Positions 6,799 to 16,407 of a stretch of DNA of 21,718 nucleotides are shown here, one piece after another. The notes beneath the pieces are model-generated. The model did not search any database. It saw only the letters and a list, made by a program, of their open reading frames with translations, and was not told where the DNA came from. The stretch's first letter is position 1, and each line of letters opens with the position of its first letter. The DNA is from a virus. The stretch lies in IMG/VR virus record IMGVR_UViG_3300042563_001227, positions 1 to 21,718 of that record; one strand, 5' to 3'. The position numbers and the translations under genes are program-made.

Positions 6799-7005
6799 TC
6801 AAGCGGCTTTGGTTGTGGCTTTTGCTTCTTTACGAGCATTTTTTTCTTCAGTGATTTCTGTGCGGCGAGCCTTAACTGCCTTGCCTACTTCCTGCAATGC
6901 TTTGCGAGCACGGGTACCTGCTGCGGAATTTCCTGCTGTGAATTTTGCATCCTCTGCTAAAAATTCATCAAATGCTGCTTTCAATTGTTCTACTGTGTTT
7001 GACAT
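6799..7005 (-). CDS. Small histone-H1-like basic protein, 68 aa
   Basis: A 68-aa protein with an acidic N-terminal helix (VEQLKAAFDEFLAEDAKF) and a strongly basic, Ala/Lys/Arg-rich C-terminus (GTRARKALQEVGKAVKARRTEI, then EKNARKEAKATTKAA). This matches the style of phage proteins annotated as histone H1-like or Hc1-like DNA-binding proteins. That is family-style recognition, not a domain match. AAAAGGAAAAC sits at good distance before the ATG at 7003-7005, a strong SD, suggesting high expression. It is the first protein gene of the operon behind the tRNA-like gene and its promoter. The likely role is DNA binding or compaction. Confidence 0.75.
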   Translation of the reverse strand: MSNTVEQLKAAFDEFLAEDAKFTAGNSAAGTRARKALQEVGKAVKARRTEITEEKNARKEAKATTKAA

Positions 7006-7027
7006 AATGTTTTCCTTTTGTTATGTT

Positions 7028-7046
7028 ATTCTACTTATTATAGAAT
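7028..7046. repeat. Inverted repeat between tRNA-like gene and histone-like gene
   Basis: ATTCTA-CTTATTA-TAGAAT is a perfect 6-bp stem with a 7-nt loop, starting two bases after the encoded CCA of the tRNA-like gene. There is no U-tract on the minus strand, so it does not look like a terminator. It could mark 3' processing of the tRNA-like RNA or be a by-product of AT-richness. The minus strand of the loop side also contains TATAAT (7037-7042), but no good -35. Confidence 0.35.
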
Positions 7047-7047
7047 T

Positions 7048-7157
7048 TGGTGTGGTCGGTAGGATTCGAACCTACAAAGGCTGTGTCTAAGACGGCGCCC
7101 CATTCCCAAGTGCGTTTCTCAACGGACCGGAGGTATCCCAGTTCCACTCACGACCAC
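7048..7157 (-). tRNA. Aberrant tRNA-like gene, candidate tRNA-Leu(UAG) with enlarged D domain
   Basis: Minus strand: a perfect 7-bp acceptor stem (GTGGTCG 5', CGACCAC 3'), discriminator A, encoded CCA, and a perfect T arm (GTAGG-TTCGAAT-CCTAC) are all present. The best anticodon arm is GCCGT-CTTAGAC-ACAGC (one C-A mismatch), with U33 and anticodon UAG, giving Leu (CUA). The total is 107 nt plus CCA, about 30 nt too long. The excess is between acceptor and anticodon stems. By hand I can fold AGTG/CACT as a D stem enclosing two hairpins (GA-a-CTGG/CCGGTC and CGTT-GAGA-AACG) with no unpaired bases at the junction, then a 12-nt linker. The 4-nt variable loop is also unusual for Leu. A promoter sits exactly upstream. 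It could instead be a degenerate tRNA or a tRNA-mimic RNA. Confidence 0.6.
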
Positions 7158-7163
7158 AAGTAT

Positions 7164-7192
7164 ATTATATACTCTCGTTTAAAACAAATCAA
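7164..7192 (-). promoter_or_regulatory. Promoter for the tRNA-like gene and downstream operon
   Basis: On the minus strand TTGATT (7187-7192, four of six) and TATAAT (7164-7169, six of six) are 17 nt apart. The -10 lies within the palindrome AGTATA-TTA-TATACT (7159-7173). Transcription would start at about 7157, the first base of the tRNA-like acceptor stem. Confidence 0.6.
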
Positions 7193-7202
7193 CAGAAGAT
7201 GG

Positions 7203-7210
7203 CTTAAATA
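7203..7210 (+). promoter_or_regulatory. Possible T4-late-type promoter motif
   Basis: CTTAAATA matches six of eight bases of the T4 late -10 element TATAAATA and lies 10 nt ahead of the ATG of the first radical SAM gene. A leader of only a few nucleotides would result. There is no Shine-Dalgarno. Weak evidence on its own; it gains some weight from better motifs in the other divergent gaps. Confidence 0.3.
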
Positions 7211-7220
7211 TGTGTACTTT

Positions 7221-8207
7221 ATGAAAAATGATTTTCAATCCATACCTTTCTATGATATAAAACGTTTTGGACAACGTACTATGCTGAGTCGTCCGTTATT
7301 TTCTGTAAGTTGGATACTTGGCAGATTCTGTAATTACAGTTGTTCTTATTGCTGGCCGTATGCTAGATCAGATAAACCCGATCATCAAGAATTGGAAGTC
7401 TATAAAAGAACCATAGATCAAATCAAGAGCCAGGCTCGTACCAACGGGTTCACAGAGTTTCATTGGAGCTTCAGTGGCGGTGAGCCTACTGCTTACAAAC
7501 AATTACCCGATCTAATGCGGCATCTACAGGATGACACCACAAGTCCTTACCAAAGCATACACATGACCACTAATCTATCCCCGGGATCTAAGTGGTGGAA
7601 AACATGGAATGCCAATACTGAAATGATGCAGCGTAGAAGTATCACAGCCAGTTATCATGCAGAACATGCCAAGGAACAAGAGTTCGGGGACAAGTGTCTA
7701 CAACTTATGGAAGATCAAATATTTGTAACTATAAATCAAGTAATGGTACCGGAAAACTTTTGGGAACTTTATGAAAGATGTGCTAGATTTCATGCCAAGG
7801 GAATAAATGTTACACTGAAACCGCAGAGTGATCCTACTGCCAGTTTCCTAGTAAGTGGTTATACTGATGAAATGATAAACCTAATGCAAACAGGATTCCC
7901 TCAGGTAGCACGGGGTGAGGATTTATACCAGATCGCGTTATATGATTCTGAAGATCGAGAATATCTGTTTGATCAGGCAGAAAGATTTAATGCATTCGGG
8001 TTCAATAAGTTTCAAGGGTGGCAGTGCAACTCGGGATTTCAAAGTGTTATTATACGAGGCAACGAAGTTAAAAGAAGTTATAGTTGTCATGATCGGCCTC
8101 TAGGTACCATAGATGCTGGCTTCAAATTATTTGATGCTCCTAAAACCTGTATCACTACCAGCTGTGTCAGTTCTGCAGATAGTAAAATACCCAAACAACA
8201 TGTCTAG
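7221..8207 (+). CDS. Radical SAM enzyme A (SPASM-like C-terminus), 328 aa
   Basis: Radical SAM enzymes cleave S-adenosylmethionine at a [4Fe-4S] cluster to start radical reactions. The cluster motif is CNYSCSYC (Cys37, 41, 44), followed by FSGGEP (85-89), which binds the SAM amino group. The C-terminus has further Cys at 269 (GWQCNSG), 289, 310 and 315, fitting a second, SPASM/twitch-like cluster. It is paralogous to the protein at 18780: both share GWQCN, the same Cys spacing and an ADxKIP- or ADIP-like end. The frame stays open upstream to 7047, but that lies inside the tRNA-like gene, so I place the start at ATG 7221. The next gene overlaps by 8 nt. The substrate is unknown. Confidence 0.88.
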   Translation: MKNDFQSIPFYDIKRFGQRTMLSRPLFSVSWILGRFCNYSCSYCWPYARSDKPDHQELEVYKRTIDQIKSQARTNGFTEFHWSFSGGEPTAYKQLPDLMRHLQDDTTSPYQSIHMTTNLSPGSKWWKTWNANTEMMQRRSITASYHAEHAKEQEFGDKCLQLMEDQIFVTINQVMVPENFWELYERCARFHAKGINVTLKPQSDPTASFLVSGYTDEMINLMQTGFPQVARGEDLYQIALYDSEDREYLFDQAERFNAFGFNKFQGWQCNSGFQSVIIRGNEVKRSYSCHDRPLGTIDAGFKLFDAPKTCITTSCVSSADSKIPKQHV

Positions 8208-8886
8208 ATTAATCGCATTTGGATGTTCATTGACCTACGGTCATTGCCTACCGTCTAGGGATCTAGCATGGCCCAACCAATTATCTAGAGTGTTGGGTCT
8301 CGACTGTGTAAACATGTCTCGAGTTGGATCTAGCAATAAGCAAATATGGCATGATCTAATAAACTTTGATTTTCAAGAGGATGATGTGGTGTTTGTTCTA
8401 TGGTCGTATCCGAGTAGAAGCTGTGTGCTTAAAAATAAAAAAGAATCGGTTAGCATCGGGCATTGGATGATCGAGGAATCTGAATTGTCTAAAACATTCT
8501 ATGAACAATTCTATACAAAATATGACATGGAGACCCAGAGCAAATTGTTTGTGAGTCATGCTAATCTTTTTTTAGCAGATAAAAAAATAACAATATATAA
8601 TCTATGCATAGAAAAGTCTCACACACTGTTGTTTGAAATGGGTGTAAATCATATTCCCTTACACTTTGGATCTTATGAAAAGATCTTCCCTAAAGCAGAT
8701 GACAATCTACATCCTGGCGTGGATGCCCACGCTATGTTCTCTAGAGATATTTTAATGCATCTAGGAAGAACCGAATATAAACATATTCCAAAAAAGAATC
8801 CCATGAGTTTGGTAGAACGATTATCGCAGCCATTCGATTTTAAAAACTTCTATGAACAACTTAGAAAACTAATAAAGAGATTGTAA
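8200..8886 (+). CDS. SGNH/GDSL-hydrolase-like protein, 228 aa
   Basis: The N-terminus MSRLIAFGCSLTYG has the block I strand and FGCSLTYG (Ser10 as putative nucleophile, with Cys in place of the Asp of GDS). MSRVGSSN (39-46) fits block II, VVFVLWSYP fits block III, and DNLHPG (Asp168, His171) gives the DxxH of block V. The set fits an SGNH hydrolase, usually an esterase or O-acetyl-processing enzyme. I chose ATG 8200, where the conserved N-terminal strand begins and which overlaps the previous stop. An upstream ATG at 8113 would add 29 residues without homology-like features. It sits between two radical SAM genes and ends TAATG with the next, so it is co-translated with them. Residues 190-228 form a basic tail. 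Confidence 0.7.
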   Translation: MSRLIAFGCSLTYGHCLPSRDLAWPNQLSRVLGLDCVNMSRVGSSNKQIWHDLINFDFQEDDVVFVLWSYPSRSCVLKNKKESVSIGHWMIEESELSKTFYEQFYTKYDMETQSKLFVSHANLFLADKKITIYNLCIEKSHTLLFEMGVNHIPLHFGSYEKIFPKADDNLHPGVDAHAMFSRDILMHLGRTEYKHIPKKNPMSLVERLSQPFDFKNFYEQLRKLIKRL

Positions 8887-9878
8887 TGTACAATATCGCA
8901 GAAATCGAATCAGTTCATTTTGAAATTACCAATAAGTGTCAGGCTAGGTGTCCAATGTGTCCTAGACGCATACTCGGTGGTCCAGAAAACCCATTCGTTG
9001 AGCAGGCTGAAATTTTGCTAGATGATTTTAAAAAATGGTTTCCTGTGTATTTTATCAAGTCTTTGAAAAATTTTATCATGTGCGGTAATCTAGGAGACCC
9101 TATAGTTGCCAAAGATACACTAAAGATCTTTGAATACATCAAAGATATCAATCCCGGTATAGAACTACATATGCATACCAATGGCAGTGGCAGATCCAAA
9201 GACTGGTGGGAAGGTATGGCCGCACTAGATGTGATAATAACTTTCGGTATTGATGGTCTTGGAGATACCCATCACTTGTACAGAATAGATACTGATTGGA
9301 ATAAAATAATTGCCAATGCTAAAATTTTTATCCAGGCAGGGGGTAGAGCTCGATGGAATATGTTGGCATTCAAACACAACGAACATCAAATAGAATCTTG
9401 TCAAGAACTTAGTAAGTCTCTAGGGTTTGAAGTTTTTGAAGTCAAACATACTAGTAGATTTAAAACAGAGCAATGGCGGGCTATCGACGACCTAGGCAGG
9501 ACTGTACATGTCCTAGAACCTACAGCAAGAAGCCTATCCATGATACCTAAAATGATTGAAGCAGAGGCTGAAATTAAACCGTTCATTGATTGCAAAGCAG
9601 TTAAGAGCAAACAAATTTATGTCGCAGCCGACGGAAATGTTACGGCCTGTTGTTGGGTTGACAGCAAATGGAAAGCTCCCATGGACGATTATAGAATTGA
9701 TTACATGGACAAAATTGGTGTATTCCATAATCTTAAAAATAATTCTCTAGAAGAAATATTTAATAGTGGATATTTTAGAGATATTGCAGATACTTGGTCC
9801 ACATGTGCATTAAAAGAATGTTCTAAGCAGTGCGGAAGTTTTAATAAATTCGGAGAACAATTTGAAAATAGATCTTGA
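8886..9878 (+). CDS. Radical SAM/SPASM enzyme B, 330 aa
   Basis: The cluster motif is CQARCPMC (Cys18, 22, 25). CGNLGDP (66-72) stands where many family members have GGEP. FGIDGLGDTHHLYR (120-133) is the conserved barrel strand of this subtype. The C-terminus shows Cys236, the pair Cys255-256 within a 'VAADGNVTACCW' strand, and Cys307/312/316, a typical SPASM-type auxiliary-cluster pattern. It is closely similar to the protein at 11922 (shared FGIDGL.DT.H.YR and KHNEHQ/RHNEHQ), on the opposite strand. SPASM enzymes often modify peptides, but many act on small molecules; no precursor peptide is visible here. The start overlaps the previous stop by one base. Confidence 0.9.
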   Translation: MYNIAEIESVHFEITNKCQARCPMCPRRILGGPENPFVEQAEILLDDFKKWFPVYFIKSLKNFIMCGNLGDPIVAKDTLKIFEYIKDINPGIELHMHTNGSGRSKDWWEGMAALDVIITFGIDGLGDTHHLYRIDTDWNKIIANAKIFIQAGGRARWNMLAFKHNEHQIESCQELSKSLGFEVFEVKHTSRFKTEQWRAIDDLGRTVHVLEPTARSLSMIPKMIEAEAEIKPFIDCKAVKSKQIYVAADGNVTACCWVDSKWKAPMDDYRIDYMDKIGVFHNLKNNSLEEIFNSGYFRDIADTWSTCALKECSKQCGSFNKFGEQFENRS

Positions 9879-10458
9879 ACATCTACATTATTGGATGTGT
9901 GCGATCAGAGAAAGCAATGACCCTAAACGCACACTAGATGCATTCTGGAAAGGCCAGATGCAGAGCAAGGAATGGTTGATAACAAACCTTAGACCGTTTA
10001 TTAAAAACTGGGTTCGGATTGAAATACACGGGGGGTGGGTTGGTGTATTAGCTAGTATGCTATTTCAAAGTGATATTCCTGCCAAGTATATCCTAAGTGT
10101 TGACATAGATCCCGAATGTGAACCCATCGCAATGATGATGAACAAAGGTGAAGAACAGGTAGGAAAGTTTCGTGCATTAACCGCAGACATGTGTGAAGTT
10201 CCCACACACGGTGATATTATCATCAATACCAGCTGCGAGCATATAACACAAGACCAGTATGCCGCATGGTTAAACAACATTTCTGGAGATCCGTTATTGG
10301 TATTACAAAGCAATGATTATAGAATTCCAGAACATGTAAGAACCGCAGATTCTCTAGAAGATTTTAAAAATCAATGCGGTGTTAATGTTTTGTGGTCAGG
10401 ATCGTTAAAACTACAACTATATACAAGATTTATGATTGTTGGAAAATTAAAGAGATAA
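9862..10458 (+). CDS. Class I SAM-dependent methyltransferase-like protein, 198 aa
   Basis: The pattern fits a small Rossmann-fold methyltransferase: motif I as IEIHGGWVGVLASM (53-66), an acidic strand end VDIDPECEP (80-88) that would bind SAM ribose, ALTADMCEV (105-113), and the motif IV-like DIIINTSCEHI (118-128). About 40 N-terminal residues form a helical cap. The start is TTG at 9862 with GGAG 7 nt upstream, overlapping the previous stop by 17 nt. It closes the plus-strand run with the radical SAM and SGNH genes and runs into the convergent gene at 10447 with a 12-nt overlap. The substrate is unknown. The glycine motif is slightly unusual (HGGWVG), so binding of SAM is likely but not proven. 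Confidence 0.7.
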   Translation: MKIDLEHLHYWMCAIRESNDPKRTLDAFWKGQMQSKEWLITNLRPFIKNWVRIEIHGGWVGVLASMLFQSDIPAKYILSVDIDPECEPIAMMMNKGEEQVGKFRALTADMCEVPTHGDIIINTSCEHITQDQYAAWLNNISGDPLLVLQSNDYRIPEHVRTADSLEDFKNQCGVNVLWSGSLKLQLYTRFMIVGKLKR

Positions 10459-11925
10459 TTTCTTTTCTATGTAAGACTTTATTATTTGATCTTTAAGAAT
10501 TTTTAGATTAGAACTTCTATTCTGTGAGTTTTCAGACAATGCCTGTTCAACTGACACTCCTTGACTCATGATGCCCCAAACTGCAAAAATGCCTGCTTTA
10601 GATTCAAATGGTCCTTGCAGCGGATCATATTCCTTCGACAACTTCCCAAACGAAAAGATATCTCCGTAATCATTCTTCCAAAAGATCTGCGGTGTTGATA
10701 AACTAATATTATGTTGTTCGAACGATGTCCGGTCCTCATATTTTTTTATTTCATCTTCGCTCATTTCGGAATATCCAAATTTAGAAAAATCTTCACCAAA
10801 CGCACTTAGTACTTTGTTTTCTCCTATCTTTGGAATTGATAAATTCCAAAAATGCCAATGCTGATCTTTCCAATTTTCTTTCAACCATTGAATTGTTTTT
10901 TCTAATGATTCTTTTGGCTCTAAAGGAAGCCCTGCTATCAATGATGCAGTTCCCCGATAATATCCTACATCGGATAACATGCGTTCCCTGATTTTTAACA
11001 TGGTTTCTTTAGTTGTATCCGGAGACATCCCTTTGCCGATTATTTTTCCAGTAGGATGATTAAAACTTTCCACTCCATAAAAATGTCCCCATATCCTACA
11101 CCTCACTAATAGATCGAGTTGATAGGGTTTGGCATTAACTAAATCCAATCGAATGAACCCAGCAAAATTGGGTTTAAAATTAAGACGCTCTACTGCCGAT
11201 GCTAATTTTTCTAACTTAGTGTCTCTTTCATTTATTGTTTCGTCGGCAATTAGGTAGTTGGTTATTCCCCATCGGTCGTAGTTAGACTGTAATTCTTGGT
11301 ATAATTCATCTTCACTTGTTGATGTATCTTCTTTTAATCCTAACACAGGACTATCACAAAATTTGCATTTAAATCTACAACCCCTAGCTAGTTCAATGGT
11401 TAATACATCTGCACTTCTCATAAAATCTCTATCTTCGTATTCTATCCTGTATGTCTCCAACGGCCACGCAGGATAGAATTCGAGAGCATCAGTGAACCAT
11501 CCTTTGAAAAAAGGCTGTCCTGTAGGCTTCTTTGTACCGTTTCCAAATTCATAATTTAGAACCTCAGTAATGGCATGTTCACCGAATCCGTAAATGTAGT
11601 AGTGAGCATTTAGATCTTTGTTGAAGCGTTGACTGCCGCCTACTATTATTTTTATATTTTTATATTCTTGTCTAATGTGTGTTATTAGGTTTATAGTGTT
11701 ATCATGATCTTGCAACCAATTAACTGAAACACCCACCCAGCTGATATCCGTACGACTGGCTAATAGTTTTTTTAATTCTTCAATGTTCCAGAATGCAAAA
11801 TAATCAACAACCTCAATGTCCCATCCATGCTTTCTCAAGTGAGTAGCTATGCGATACGCACCGTTTGATCTTCCGGTACTAGGATTCTCTTCAGAAAATC
11901 CTGCAAAAATTAAACCTTTTTTCAT
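10447..11925 (-). CDS. Radical SAM enzyme C with B12-domain-like N-terminus, 492 aa
   Basis: The first 130 residues look like a Rossmann (cobalamin-binding-type) domain: KGLIFAGFS, then HGWDIEVVDYF, ISWVGVSVNW and IKIIVGGSQ as successive strands. The classical DxHxxG cobalamin motif is not visible, so B12 may not be bound. The radical SAM core follows with CRFKCKFC (Cys183, 187, 190), ADETINER, and later strands such as GHFYGVESF. This is the architecture of B12-dependent radical SAM methyltransferases and related family members such as BchE- and MiaB-style enzymes. The C-terminal 100 residues are unique. The ATG overlaps the upstream radical SAM gene by 4 nt (ATGA), so the two are co-translated. 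Confidence 0.85.
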   Translation of the reverse strand: MKKGLIFAGFSEENPSTGRSNGAYRIATHLRKHGWDIEVVDYFAFWNIEELKKLLASRTDISWVGVSVNWLQDHDNTINLITHIRQEYKNIKIIVGGSQRFNKDLNAHYYIYGFGEHAITEVLNYEFGNGTKKPTGQPFFKGWFTDALEFYPAWPLETYRIEYEDRDFMRSADVLTIELARGCRFKCKFCDSPVLGLKEDTSTSEDELYQELQSNYDRWGITNYLIADETINERDTKLEKLASAVERLNFKPNFAGFIRLDLVNAKPYQLDLLVRCRIWGHFYGVESFNHPTGKIIGKGMSPDTTKETMLKIRERMLSDVGYYRGTASLIAGLPLEPKESLEKTIQWLKENWKDQHWHFWNLSIPKIGENKVLSAFGEDFSKFGYSEMSEDEIKKYEDRTSFEQHNISLSTPQIFWKNDYGDIFSFGKLSKEYDPLQGPFESKAGIFAVWGIMSQGVSVEQALSENSQNRSSNLKILKDQIIKSYIEKKLSL

Positions 11926-12965
11926 AATTGGTCTCTGTCAGATACAGGTGCTTGTGCGTTTATTGCGCAGAACAAAACACATATTGCGATTCTATTTTGA
12001 GATATCCACCTAGCCTCAATCTGGTTAAAAAAATCACCAGCAACGATGTCGGTCCAATTATTAAATTTAAGACTGATGTTTCGATCTCCATGATCTTTCC
12101 ATAATTGATCCCAACCATCGTGCATGGTCTTTCCGAATTTGGTTTCATATTGATAAACTCCCGATGCTGTATAACAACACGGAAACAATCTACCTTTAAC
12201 ATCAATGTATGCTTCTTGATGATTTTTCGATATGCAGGAGATGTCAAGAGATTTAGTTTGTTCTTTCCAAGTTGCTGCATTTGGTACAAATTTAATTTCG
12301 CTAATAAATTCTGTATCAGTTGGAGGTTCTATTTTTGTCTGTGATGCTCCGACTATTTCTATTCCTTTTATCTCGGACTGTACAAATCTATGAGGTTTCT
12401 TTAACATGAATGTTTTGAACCCTAACTCGGAAGCAAGAATGCGAGCTTGATCTCGTTGATGTTCGTTGTGCCTAAATACAATAAACTGCCAAGTAGCATT
12501 GCCGCCTGCTGCTATAAATGCCTTGACATTTTTTATCAAACTATTCCAATTGACATTTACTCTATAGATATGATTGGTGTCTTCCAACCCATCAATACCG
12601 AATATAACTTCGTGATTTGCCGGCAATGCTTTTGCTAATTTTTCCCACCAACTAGCAGATTTCATACCGCCATTAGTAGCCACTGAAATTTTCAAGTTAG
12701 GATTAATGTTTTTAACAGTCTCGACAACTTCTAAAAAATTAGGTGCGGTGCAGGGATCGCCTATGCTACCAGCGAAGTGTACAGTCGACAACTCGTCGTA
12801 GACATGTTTAGGTATAGACTTAACAAAGAATTCAGTTTCTAAATACTCTTCTTGAAACCAAGACTTATCGTCCCCTTTGTCTTCTCGTAAACAATGAGGG
12901 CATCTCGCGTTGCATATAGAGCTGTTTTCTATTTCTAGAAAATCTAATTTATTATAAAAATTCAT
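11922..12965 (-). CDS. Radical SAM/SPASM enzyme D, 347 aa
   Basis: The motif CNARCPHC (Cys18, 22, 25) is followed by HFAGSIGDPC (63-72) and IFGIDGLEDTNHIYR (121-135). The C-terminal part has Cys244, a Cys263-264 pair in 'IDVKGRLFPCCY', and then Cys329 and Cys333. It is the paralog of enzyme B at 8886, aligned almost throughout. It appears to lack B's equivalent of Cys307 (the region here reads SQNRIAICVLFC), so the last cluster may be different or the end diverged. It overlaps the upstream kinase-like gene by 14 nt and the downstream radical SAM gene by 4 nt. It is probably a partner of enzyme C, because the two are translationally coupled. Confidence 0.9.
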   Translation of the reverse strand: MNFYNKLDFLEIENSSICNARCPHCLREDKGDDKSWFQEEYLETEFFVKSIPKHVYDELSTVHFAGSIGDPCTAPNFLEVVETVKNINPNLKISVATNGGMKSASWWEKLAKALPANHEVIFGIDGLEDTNHIYRVNVNWNSLIKNVKAFIAAGGNATWQFIVFRHNEHQRDQARILASELGFKTFMLKKPHRFVQSEIKGIEIVGASQTKIEPPTDTEFISEIKFVPNAATWKEQTKSLDISCISKNHQEAYIDVKGRLFPCCYTASGVYQYETKFGKTMHDGWDQLWKDHGDRNISLKFNNWTDIVAGDFFNQIEARWISQNRIAICVLFCAINAQAPVSDRDQL

Positions 12966-13656
12966 TCTTAATCGTTAGTAGCTGATCCACAAGGTCAGAT
13001 GGATAATTATGTCTGAAACTTTCAAAACATATGTTCTGTAAAAACCAAAGATCGTATTTTCTTTTTATATCTACTCCGGTCTCTTGCAAAATAGGAGCAA
13101 GTTTTTCTTGCCGACTATCACTTAACTGTATTAGATAATCGTGTATAGACCGATCTTCTTCATTTCTTTGAAAAGAAAAAAACCAATTGAACGGGCGCAG
13201 TACTCCGTCATCATATACCAACCAACTATTAGGATGCATACTGAATTTCAATATGCCAGAACTCCACATCTCTCTATATCGCTGTTTTACCTGTTCTCTC
13301 CAATCCGGCAGCACATCGTCGTAGTTGCGTCCGTAGCCCATCATATAAAAATCATCCCCTGGCCACTTTATATAAATCTCTCTCTGAGATTCGTTGACGT
13401 CGATGACATCAGCAACGGCCACTGTTGTCTTGGCTACGTTGTACATGGCTATTTCACGTTGGAAACGCTCAGTTAACAGATCCTCAGACCACTGTTCGTT
13501 TTCTAACTGAACATTATGATACTCTAGATTGCGATGAAACTTCATACAGAAAGTTTTGTTGTCAGGACTTACGTATGGAGTATAGACCAGATTGGCCCTG
13601 CAAATACCGTCAGGTTCTTGATTGTAGTAGAAATTCCATTTGGTTAAGTTTGGCAT
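12952..13656 (-). CDS. Kinase-fold-like protein, probably degenerate, 234 aa
   Basis: Not firmly recognised, but the layout recalls small protein-kinase/phosphotransferase-like (APH/Bud32-like) folds: a possible lysine strand FCMKFHR (Lys39), a helix with Glu (ERFQREIAMY, Glu68), a hinge-like strand IYIKWPG, and a catalytic-loop-like SMHPNSWLVYDDG (140-151) followed by LRPFNWFF where DFG would be. Relative to HxDxxxxN and DFG the key Asp residues are missing, so catalysis may be lost or altered. The frame extends upstream to 13686, but that would overlap the divergent gene's promoter-like gap. I use ATG 13654-13656, where MPNLTKWNFYYN begins. It is the first gene of the run that leads to enzymes D and C. 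Confidence 0.5.
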   Translation of the reverse strand: MPNLTKWNFYYNQEPDGICRANLVYTPYVSPDNKTFCMKFHRNLEYHNVQLENEQWSEDLLTERFQREIAMYNVAKTTVAVADVIDVNESQREIYIKWPGDDFYMMGYGRNYDDVLPDWREQVKQRYREMWSSGILKFSMHPNSWLVYDDGVLRPFNWFFSFQRNEEDRSIHDYLIQLSDSRQEKLAPILQETGVDIKRKYDLWFLQNICFESFRHNYPSDLVDQLLTIKNEFL

Positions 13657-13678
13657 AATAAATACGTACATATTTATG
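13657..13678. promoter_or_regulatory. Divergent pair of T4-late-like promoter motifs
   Basis: Plus strand AATAAATA at 13657-13664 and minus strand CATAAATA at 13671-13678 each match seven of eight bases of the T4 late element TATAAATA. They face outwards into the 35-nt gap between the kinase-like gene (ATG 13656, minus) and the oxygenase gene (ATG 13692, plus). Predicted leaders are about 9 nt (minus) and 22 nt (plus). Confidence 0.5.
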
Positions 13679-13691
13679 AAGAACAATTTTA

Positions 13692-14501
13692 ATGATTAAG
13701 GGAATAGACAATCGACCTTATTTAGATATGACACCATATCTGGACATGAAGGTCTTCGACCAGTTGCAGCCTGAGATATATAGAGGCTTTGCTGATGCAA
13801 GACTATATGCTAAAGAGGGTACCTGGATGAAGCCTGGGATGCGGGTAGAAGATGCTAGCTACGTACGAAATTGGAAACCTATCTACCAGGCCATAGAAGA
13901 ATTCCTAGCACTGCCAGACGACGATCCTATCAAACAGGGTGGAATAGATCTCTACAGAGATTTCCACAATTTCGAAGTTAGGAATAGATTTACTCGTTAT
14001 CTAAAGATGGCTATGGGCGCATACGATCCCTACATTTACTATTATCTGTGGGAAGAAGGTTCGTGGGACGATAGAACTGCCGCACGTAAGTTAACACCCG
14101 AAGCACAGCATTTTCCTAATGTTGTCAGGTGGGTTGAAAGTCTAGTAGGCACAGTGTTTGAAGACATTGGTCGTGTTATATTTTTCCATTGCGAAGCAGA
14201 TGGTATACCATTTGAACATAGAGATCTCGATGCTAGTCATGGGGTATGGGACAGCAATACCTATACACCTCATCGTAATGAATTCATTCACGTTAGGCCT
14301 AGTTTATCAAAACCGTTTTATATATGGGATGCACATGCCAAGAAAAAAGTCTATATCGATAGTAGAGCTGCATGGTGGAATGATCAAGATTGGCATGGCG
14401 GAGATCGAATCATGCAGCAAAGCTACGGTCTTCGAATAGACGGCAAGTTCACTGAAACCTTTCGAACTCGATTAGGGGTTGGACATTTAGAAAATTATTG
14501 A
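13692..14501 (+). CDS. Putative 2-oxoglutarate/Fe(II) oxygenase (aspartyl-hydroxylase-like), 269 aa
   Basis: A facial-triad pattern is visible: HRD at His176/Asp178 in GIPFEHRDLDA, a distal His235 in DQDWHGGDR, and Arg248 in YGLRIDGKF as a possible 2-oxoglutarate anchor. This order (HxD ... H ... R) fits Fe(II)/2-oxoglutarate hydroxylases. Beta strands RVIFFHCEAD and EFIHVRPSL would form the jelly-roll. The N-terminal 110 residues are helical, with Tyr/Asp-rich loops. The family reading is an inference from spacing. It is a single plus-strand gene between the divergent promoter-like gap and a second oxygenase gene that converges on it, with 15 nt of 3' overlap. Confidence 0.6.
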   Translation: MIKGIDNRPYLDMTPYLDMKVFDQLQPEIYRGFADARLYAKEGTWMKPGMRVEDASYVRNWKPIYQAIEEFLALPDDDPIKQGGIDLYRDFHNFEVRNRFTRYLKMAMGAYDPYIYYYLWEEGSWDDRTAARKLTPEAQHFPNVVRWVESLVGTVFEDIGRVIFFHCEADGIPFEHRDLDASHGVWDSNTYTPHRNEFIHVRPSLSKPFYIWDAHAKKKVYIDSRAAWWNDQDWHGGDRIMQQSYGLRIDGKFTETFRTRLGVGHLENY

Positions 14502-14999
14502 ATCTGAATAACTGACAATCTGTAGAGACACCTTGGCTTCAAATCCCAGATTACAAGCAGCATGCCAAGCATTGGGATCTTCAAACTCAAAAAGATCTCC
14601 AGCTCGATAATCTCTTAATGTTGTGTTCTCGTAGACAAATACATGCCCTAATTTAGCATCTTGCATGGCCATCCAAAATCGTCTTATATTGGGTTTGTTT
14701 TCCTTGAATAGATCTTGATGCATGGGAAACATATCACCCGGATTCAATTTAGAAAACCACCATTGTCCGTCTTCTCCTGGATCAAATGGCATCTCTATTT
14801 TATCTTGAAAATGGCTTTGATAGTACAGTGTCCAACCTATTTTGTCAATACTGTATCCCGCAGCTCGAGCCTTGTCATATAACGGTATTTTATAAGATCC
14901 TACATTATCAGTCTCTGGACGTCGATCTCCAGGAACTAACAGGATGGTATCTAGTATGTGTGGTTTCAACCAAGTTGAATAGTTTTTAATAAAACGCAT
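14487..14999 (-). CDS. Putative 2-oxoglutarate/Fe(II) hydroxylase, 170 aa
   Basis: A second oxygenase of a different size. PMHQD (His94, Asp96) gives HxD, with a distal His146 in DPNAWHAACN about 50 residues later. A basic residue near the end (Lys156 in FEAKVSLQIV) could be the carboxylate anchor. GDLFEFED just before the distal His is a jelly-roll strand of the type seen in prolyl/asparaginyl hydroxylases. I chose ATG 14997-14999; an upstream ATG at 15026 would place nine more residues across the divergent neighbour's start. A TGTAAATA late-type motif (15008-15015) precedes it. The gene is convergent with the 13692 oxygenase and divergent from radical SAM enzyme E. Confidence 0.65.
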   Translation of the reverse strand: MRFIKNYSTWLKPHILDTILLVPGDRRPETDNVGSYKIPLYDKARAAGYSIDKIGWTLYYQSHFQDKIEMPFDPGEDGQWWFSKLNPGDMFPMHQDLFKENKPNIRRFWMAMQDAKLGHVFVYENTTLRDYRAGDLFEFEDPNAWHAACNLGFEAKVSLQIVSYSDSIIF

Positions 15000-15007
15000 G
15001 ATAACTA

Positions 15008-15015
15008 TATTTACA
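15008..15015 (-). promoter_or_regulatory. Possible late-type promoter motif for the 170-aa oxygenase
   Basis: On the minus strand TGTAAATA matches seven of eight bases of TATAAATA and lies 8 nt upstream of ATG 14999. The predicted transcript would be almost leaderless. No equally good motif faces enzyme E on the plus strand. Confidence 0.35.
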
Positions 15016-16407
15016 ATGACCGACAAACTGAAAAAATTTATTCAAATAGTAGAAGAGAAATCCGGATCTAAAACATTCTGTGTTTTGCCATGGATACACT
15101 TGGCCACTAGACCAAATGGAGATATGCGTATCTGCTGTGTGGCCAATGCCAGTGGTGCGGGATCAGGGGACTATTCCGTAGGCCTAGTTAAAAAAGAAAA
15201 CGGGGATCCTGCTAACTTTGGAAAAGACTTACCTACAGATGCGTTCAATAACGAATATATGAAATCTGTTCGTAGGACCATGTTAGATGGTAAGGTACCC
15301 AGCAGTTGTACAAAATGTTTTGATGAAGAGGATCAAGGAATCGCCAGCAAGAGGATGTGGGAAACATTTACCTGGGATAAGGAAGGAGTTGATATTCCTA
15401 ACCTCATAAAGGAAACATCCCAAGATGGCACAGTTCCTTACAAACTAGAATATCTGGATCTAAGACTAGGACATACTTGTAATCTAAAATGCATTATGTG
15501 TAGCCCGCATGACAGCAGTCAGTGGGTGGGTGAACACAAAAAAGTTTATCCGTTATTTCAAAGTTCATTGATCAAAAAACAGATGGATTGGAACAAAAAA
15601 GATTTCAATAATTTTTGGCATGAAAATCCAGAGTTCTGGCAACAAATATACGATCAAATTCCTAACATAAAACATCTCTATTTTGCAGGTGGAGAACCTC
15701 TAATGATTCGAGAGCATAGATGGTTTCTCGAGGAGATAGTTAAACGTGGATATGCTAAAAATATATCTATAAGATACAACAGCAATGGTGTATTAGTAGA
15801 CGACGAAATAATCGAATTGTGGAAAGAATTTAAAACTGTGAGATTCTCAGTTAGTCTTGATGGAATTTTAGAACGTGGGCACTACATACGATACCCCTTA
15901 GATTGGAAAAAACTAGAAGCAGCTTTATGGAAGTTAGATAACACACCGGACAATATTCTTCCAAGGATTGCCTGTGCAGTGCAGATCCTAAATATAAAAC
16001 ATATACCAGATTTTATCAAATGGAAGATCAACAGCAAATTTAAAAAACTAAATCTAGAAACAGCACTAGACGGAAATGTGTTAGGCGGGGGATTAATGAG
16101 CGTACACTTATTATGGATACCCACATGGCTGAGTCTACGAGTCCTTCCTAAGAAAGACAAGGAAGAAGTTAGAAAATTATTTGCTGATTTGCAGTATTGG
16201 TTATGGAACAACTATACGCAAGATGCAGACTTCTGGGAAAAGAATCCATATGGTTGGCGAAGATGGGAAAGTATCCTAGACTGGATGGATGCCGAAGACC
16301 ACAGCAATTTAATTCCTGATTTTAAAGAATACATAAACACTATGGACACACAGCGAGGAACTAATTTTTCTCAGACTTTTCCAGAATTGAGTCATTTAAT
16401 AAAATGA
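15016..16407 (+). CDS. Radical SAM enzyme E with N-terminal twitch domain, 463 aa
   Basis: The N-terminal Cys-rich module FCVLPWIHLATRPNGDMRICC (Cys22, 40, 41; then Cys98 and Cys101 in SSCTKC) is a twitch-type cluster domain placed before, rather than after, the radical SAM core. The core has CNLKCIMC (Cys155, 159, 162), YFAGGEPL and FSVSLDG. This matches the 'N-terminal twitch domain-containing radical SAM' family as I know it. The C-terminal 150 residues are Trp-rich and not shared with standard SPASM domains. It is the paralog of enzyme G (19669). The start may be ATG 14998 (six residues longer) instead; neither has a good SD. The following GNAT gene starts in an ATGA overlap, so it is coupled. 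Confidence 0.9.
   Translation: MTDKLKKFIQIVEEKSGSKTFCVLPWIHLATRPNGDMRICCVANASGAGSGDYSVGLVKKENGDPANFGKDLPTDAFNNEYMKSVRRTMLDGKVPSSCTKCFDEEDQGIASKRMWETFTWDKEGVDIPNLIKETSQDGTVPYKLEYLDLRLGHTCNLKCIMCSPHDSSQWVGEHKKVYPLFQSSLIKKQMDWNKKDFNNFWHENPEFWQQIYDQIPNIKHLYFAGGEPLMIREHRWFLEEIVKRGYAKNISIRYNSNGVLVDDEIIELWKEFKTVRFSVSLDGILERGHYIRYPLDWKKLEAALWKLDNTPDNILPRIACAVQILNIKHIPDFIKWKINSKFKKLNLETALDGNVLGGGLMSVHLLWIPTWLSLRVLPKKDKEEVRKLFADLQYWLWNNYTQDADFWEKNPYGWRRWESILDWMDAEDHSNLIPDFKEYINTMDTQRGTNFSQTFPELSHLIK

Follow-up and report, generated by a model that had tools for sequence, protein, structure and literature searches.

The question raised by this locus is what kind of RNA is encoded by a 110-nt gene that ends like a tRNA and exceeds the length of a 76-nt tRNA by 34 nt. 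The gene lies on the minus strand and runs from position 7157 to 7048 of the window, the 21,718-nt stretch of viral DNA that was analyzed (positions 1 to 21,718 of IMG/VR record IMGVR_UViG_3300042563_001227). Base 1 of the RNA is 7157, the CCA is 7050–7048, and RNA position p corresponds to window base 7158 – p. The initial annotation, which left the strand unstated, described a perfect acceptor stem, T arm, and encoded CCA around an over-long interior, and all of these are found. The 7-bp acceptor stem is formed by GUGGUCG (7151–7157) and CGACCAC (7052–7058). The T arm is GUAGG-UUCGAAU-CCUAC (7059–7075), with a 5-bp stem and a 7-nt loop, and discriminator A73 and the encoded CCA occupy 7048–7051. 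The acceptor stem, T arm, and CCA are those of a canonical tRNA.

Two checks proposed with the initial annotation, tRNA finders with intron options and a minimum free energy fold, did not help. When ARAGORN was run on the whole window, no tRNA and no tmRNA were found. With introns and relaxed scores allowed, it drew tRNA-Pro and tRNA-Cys structures that are inconsistent with each other, and no intron family match was obtained here. None of 4227 Rfam models matched the window at their thresholds, and only one chance match of 17 bits appeared when the search was relaxed to E ≤ 1. The minimum free energy of the RNA is no better than that of shuffled sequences (z of –0.20), and folding of the plus strand of this region gave no evidence for a structured RNA. 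Since the finders and the folding energy are uninformative, the decision was left to comparative evidence.

Relatives were collected by pattern scans of viral contigs. Apart from the acceptor stem and base 8, the first pattern fixed just a portion of the T arm, and it returned 110 stretches. Together with the window, all 111 of these sequences end in ACCA and share the D core AGUGGAA...GG.A.ACC, neither of which was demanded by the pattern. Later scans with the D core added distant members with other acceptor stems; the D core was imposed in these scans, and part of its invariance among their matches is therefore built in. The scans gave at least 197 relatives, at least 109 of them distinct, with lengths of 96–117 nt among the matches listed. 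A covariance model trained on 23 sequences, one of which is the window sequence, scored the window copy at 112.5 bits (E of 8.7e-29, a rough value like all E-values of this model). Exactly one match of at least 80 bits was detected with this model in each of 24 large phage records.

No relative was found with the first pattern in 84,980 bacterial and archaeal (GTDB) genomes; three GTDB matches to a looser pattern were without tRNA structure and were rejected as chance. BLAST against 50,697 phage records returned only T-arm matches and no relative, and two huge-phage matches that were examined are ordinary tRNAs. In five loci, Rfam found dozens of tRNAs and none of the five family members located there. 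A literature search, most subscription journals being outside its scope, returned no description of an anticodon-less phage tRNA-like RNA. Within the literature and collections searched, the family is an undescribed kind of phage RNA, and a tRNA-like one overlooked by gene finders, ARAGORN and Rfam both missing the window copy. A T4-type major capsid protein is clear in 5 of the 24 large records, so part of the family, at least, is in T4-like phages.

Other RNA features were recorded in the related loci (numbered with the prefix L). A second unusual tRNA-like gene is nearly identical in three of them, at L252:1633–1753 (plus strand), L280:9289–9409 (minus), and L292:9528–9648 (minus). It is 121 nt long with CCA, one of its arms is CUUAUAAAAG, and its variable region is long. 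ARAGORN missed it, and in Rfam the L292 copy alone is recognized as a tRNA, with a weak score (36.8 bits). A match to the tRNA-Sec model in L252 was rejected, as it reads as tRNA-Ser(UGA). Group I introns (Rfam scores of 61.1 and 60.5 bits) lie in or beside phage tRNA arrays at L292:3787–3974 (minus) and L158:4941–5132 (plus), respectively, and intron-like sequence is located ahead of tRNA 3′ halves at L258:3058–3164 and L275:4082–4178.

The interior of the window RNA contains a D domain and two hairpin arms. The D domain, UGAGUGGAACUGGGAUACCU (7131–7150), resembles that of tRNA-Leu and carries U8, A14, A15, G18, G19, and A20a. Arm 1 (7106–7130), at the position of the anticodon arm, is a CGUU-GAGA-AACG hairpin upon a basal helix. 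Arm 2 (7077–7101), at the position of the variable arm, is composed of a GGGGC/GCCUU helix, an internal loop, and a GUC-UUA-GAC triloop hairpin. The invariant U48 (7076) is the Levitt partner of A15.

Pairing across the relatives was counted on short segments needing no gaps and compared with 500 shuffles. The acceptor and T stems, arm 1 of the YCAUA-loop class, and arm 2 are 99.8, 100, and 99.3% paired, with nine, five, and five pairs changing on both sides, respectively; the corresponding double-change cells number 68, 33, and 18, counts that are inflated by kinship among the sequences. For all three, the percentage paired and the double-change cells each exceed every shuffle, and pairing drops to 64% or less in slid registers. 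Loop motifs were used to pick the segments of arms 1 and 2; this fixes the register and not the stem pairing. Two-sided changes are found in 6 of the 7 acceptor pairs (99.6% paired), and the consensus structure of the 23-sequence alignment is 99.0% paired. The tertiary 18:55 pair also covaries, with G18/U55 in 102 and A18/G55 in 7 of the 109 distinct relatives listed and no mixed combination. In the seven A18 members (L158, L151, L279, and others), the T loop is altered to GGCAG or UGCAA, so that the universal elbow contact takes an unusual form. Among the same 109, 99 have G and 9 have A at base 1, and the encoded CCA is present in 95 and missing from 14.

The comparison of homologues that had been suggested thus revealed compensatory changes in the extra hairpins, and the relatives have no tRNA of normal length at this place. 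Constraint on the gene, which had been deduced from the perfect stems, is borne out by the relatives, free folding alone giving no such signal. The structure and the membership of the window copy in the family are close to certain. A decaying tRNA pseudogene or a chance fold would agree with the unremarkable folding energy, but this least probable of all readings is refuted by the relatives, at least 197 in number, in which every main helix has compensatory changes and the promoter is conserved.

The initial annotation had assigned the extra bases to an expanded D domain, in which two adjacent hairpins formed a three-way junction within a 4-bp D stem. The CGUU-GAGA-AACG hairpin is real, as all four of its pairs change on both sides, but the extra bases belong to hairpins at the anticodon-arm and variable-arm positions and not to the D arm. 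The junction helices AGUG/CACU and CUGGG.../...CCGG are each about 60% paired across the relatives, with no two-sided changes. The D domain differs little from the D arm of a normal tRNA-Leu; it has one base more, and its D stem is non-standard and invariant across the relatives. The first of three suggested identities, a tRNA with an unusual D domain, is therefore not supported. The comparison of the relatives shows an L-shaped tRNA core, made up of the acceptor stem, T arm, D domain, and the contact between the D and T loops, in which two covarying hairpins stand in for the anticodon and variable arms.

The second suggested identity, a tRNA with an internal insertion, belongs to a broader reading in which the gene is a decoding tRNA with an insertion or intron and an anticodon of UAG, GAG, or GGG. 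Such a tRNA can be drawn by hand and by relaxed ARAGORN; ARAGORN also assigns tRNA-Pro or tRNA-Arg, with false anticodons, to a few short relatives and misses most members. In the register of the UAG arm proposed initially (GCCGU-CUUAGAC-ACAGC), 50.3% of the cells are paired, versus 50.4% in the shuffles. The site of this arm is a 3-bp NUA-triloop hairpin, part of the arm 2 structure, and removal of the insert leaves no anticodon arm. The arm 1 loops of the relatives are GNRA, UUCG, CUUG, or YCAUA, closed directly by stems, and the arm 2 triloop is nearly always NUA or AUU, usually NUA, closed by three or four changing pairs. A 5-bp anticodon stem with a 7-nt loop and U33 is absent from the family, and no leucine anticodon (NAG or YAA) was found in the family RNA. 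Because the 7-nt anticodon loop is absent, the family RNA cannot decode, and a decoding tRNA is very improbable at this locus.

Upstream of the gene, a –35 box (TTGATT, 7187–7192) and a –10 box (TATAAT, 7164–7169) are located on the minus strand, with the –10 box ending 6 nt ahead of base 1 and the predicted start at 7157, a G. A sigma-70 promoter with at least 9 of 12 matches is found in 97 of 104 distinct upstream regions of the family, compared with 22 of 561 ordinary tRNAs in these loci. Of the 101 family regions that score at least 8, 89 have a –10 box ending 6 nt ahead of base 1. From this placement, transcription is predicted to start at base 1, so that the RNA would be leaderless and RNase P would not be needed.

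Downstream of the gene, an Hc1-like (histone H1-like) ORF of 68 amino acids (6799–7005, minus strand) begins 42 nt past the CCA and is probably co-transcribed with the RNA. The interval between the two contains an ATAAGTA motif in a small hairpin (about 7017–7046), common to many relatives, that is perhaps a late promoter or a 3′-end signal. On the other side, a divergent radical SAM gene (7221–8207, plus strand) starts 63 nt from the RNA in the window group; its start was taken from homologues, the ORF as listed beginning at 7047. Five radical SAM genes, one with a B12-binding domain, lie within 9 kb (7047–16407), near a ThyX-type (Thy1) thymidylate synthase and a cytidylyltransferase.

The RNA might instead be a cis-acting 5′ leader, a tRNA-like element controlling the downstream mRNA, here that of the Hc1-like protein. 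The transcript is predicted to begin with it, ahead of the Hc1-like start codon, and the 42-nt spacing is kept in one large group. The downstream partner, however, changes wholly between groups, being the Hc1-like ORF in the window group and a small secreted-type ORF or a tRNA in others, which indicates an RNA gene in its own right and not the leader of one gene. A leader would also leave the conservation of A73 and CCA unexplained, and this function is improbable. The last of the three suggested identities was a tRNA-mimic regulatory RNA; "tRNA mimic" comes nearest to the findings, whereas "regulatory" gains no support, the downstream gene differing between groups. Where a tRNA follows within 60 nt, it is tRNA-Ser(GCU) in 13 of 16 copies. 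These 13 distinct copies have tRNA-Ser(GCU) on the same strand, 2–53 nt after the RNA, in L173, L241, L243, L254, L255, L267, L275, L277, L278, L279, L281, L287, and L292.

The amino acid character of the RNA was assessed from its nearest tRNAs. When 547 tRNAs, 53 of them tRNA-Leu, were ranked by the family covariance model, the top 17 matches outside the family were all tRNA-Leu, as were 25 of the best 30. By this ranking, the nearest relative of the family RNA is tRNA-Leu. The E. coli leucyl-tRNA synthetase (LeuRS) relies on A73, A15-U48, G18G19, and A20a, does not need the anticodon and variable arms, and remains active on tRNA-Leu variants without both (PMC9976931). The LeuRS identity set of A73, A14, A15-U48, G18G19, and A20a is present in the family, with G18 replaced by A in 7 of 109; these rules are those of the E. 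coli enzyme and may not be those of the host. U48 and A73 are each found in 109 of the 109 distinct relatives listed, and neither was imposed by the scans. Among 465 distinct phage tRNAs from the same loci, the combination of A15-U48, A73, and A20a occurs in 47 of 50 tRNA-Leu and in 41 of 415 others, including 13 tRNA-Thr and 8 tRNA-Lys. The short variable loop had been held against leucine; these phages commonly carry tRNA-Leu genes of only 76–78 nt whose variable loop is short, which removes the objection. Judged by these identity elements, the odds that LeuRS would charge the RNA with leucine are about even. Because LeuRS is independent of the anticodon, a sharp prediction follows, namely that leucine charging would depend on A73.

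The preferred reading, with a probability of roughly 0.5, is that the gene encodes a leaderless, anticodon-less leucine acceptor derived from tRNA-Leu. The family would descend from, or converge closely upon, tRNA-Leu, with loss of the anticodon arm. Synthesis would begin at base 1, the 3′ end would be freed at the CCA, or CCA would be added to copies that do not encode it, and the host LeuRS would load the RNA with leucine. Being non-decoding, the RNA would act outside translation, either donating leucine or serving as a decoy that occupies LeuRS or another tRNA-binding protein, and the NUA-triloop arm would probably be bound by a specific partner. The RNA is probably a leucine carrier or a decoy unable to read codons, and any particular biological role is doubtful. 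Leucyl-tRNA-using transferases (PF03588, leucyl/phenylalanyl-transferase) were searched for in the 24 phage records and none was detected. Donation of leucine by a phage-encoded enzyme is thus unsupported, and the use of a host enzyme, or action as a decoy, is equally likely. A fuller version can be offered only tentatively: a never-decoding phage RNA with its own promoter and no need for RNase P that is charged by the host LeuRS and, during infection, diverts leucine or LeuRS, or delivers leucyl groups to a non-ribosomal reaction. If this is true, phages would possess a new functional class of aminoacyl-RNA. Charging by itself would suggest that, during infection, aminoacyl-RNA is used for something other than translation or that the RNA serves as a LeuRS or tRNA decoy.

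The main rival is a tRNA decoy that needs no amino acid, in which mimicry of the elbow and acceptor soaks up a host protein attacking or sensing tRNA, such as a defence effector or a modification or processing enzyme. The strong sigma-70-type promoter in nearly all copies fits such a decoy; loss of the anticodon takes away the target of anticodon nucleases, and arms 1 and 2 offer non-tRNA surfaces. Phage defences that target tRNA provide a precedent (for example, PMC10264068 and PMC13096335). Mimicry of shape alone, however, would not require that every copy keep A73 and the complete leucine identity set, and an uncharged decoy is unlikely, though less so than the other rivals. Less probable is an RNA directed at the ribosome or an elongation factor, which would enter the tRNA pathway without a codon, with a logic like that of tmRNA, and rescue, pause, or inhibit ribosomes. 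The tRNA core and charging end without an anticodon agree with this function. The RNA has no tag-reading frame and no apparent tmRNA pseudoknots, its 3-70 pair is G-C or A-U and not the G-U of alanine, and ARAGORN made no tmRNA call.

The leucine acceptor proposed here can be compared with several known systems. With bacterial and phage tRNA-Leu it shares the D arm GUGGAAU(U)GGYAGAC, A14, A15-U48, G18G19, A20a, A73, the T arm, and CCA; unlike tRNA-Leu, it has no anticodon arm, two other hairpins, one extra D-arm base, and a promoter at base 1. A truncated E. coli tRNA-Leu without the anticodon and variable arms was made by Larkin et al. in 2002 (as cited in PMC9976931). The leucine acceptor logic and the missing anticodon are common to both, but that molecule is man-made, whereas the family RNA is natural and has conserved hairpins in place of the lost arms; if charged, it would be the natural counterpart of the laboratory-made one. 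The tRNA-like domain of tmRNA is similar in its tRNA core, CCA end, and lack of an anticodon. The family RNA differs from tmRNA in having no G3-U70, mRNA-like tag region, or apparent pseudoknots, and in its Leu-like D domain, the D loop of tmRNA having no stem. The tRNA shape is also used outside decoding by the tRNA-like structures of plant RNA viruses, by mascRNA, and by modules of bacterial Y RNA. Compared with these mimics, the family RNA has a continuous 7-bp acceptor stem free of a pseudoknot, occurs in DNA phages, and is of the tRNA-Leu type. In the leaderless tRNAs of Nanoarchaeum equitans, the promoter is placed so that transcription starts at the first mature base, and RNase P is avoided. 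The family RNA is like these leaderless tRNAs (PMC10100707) in its predicted start at the first mature base, and differs in using a bacterial sigma-70 promoter that is mostly absent from the ordinary tRNAs of the same phages.
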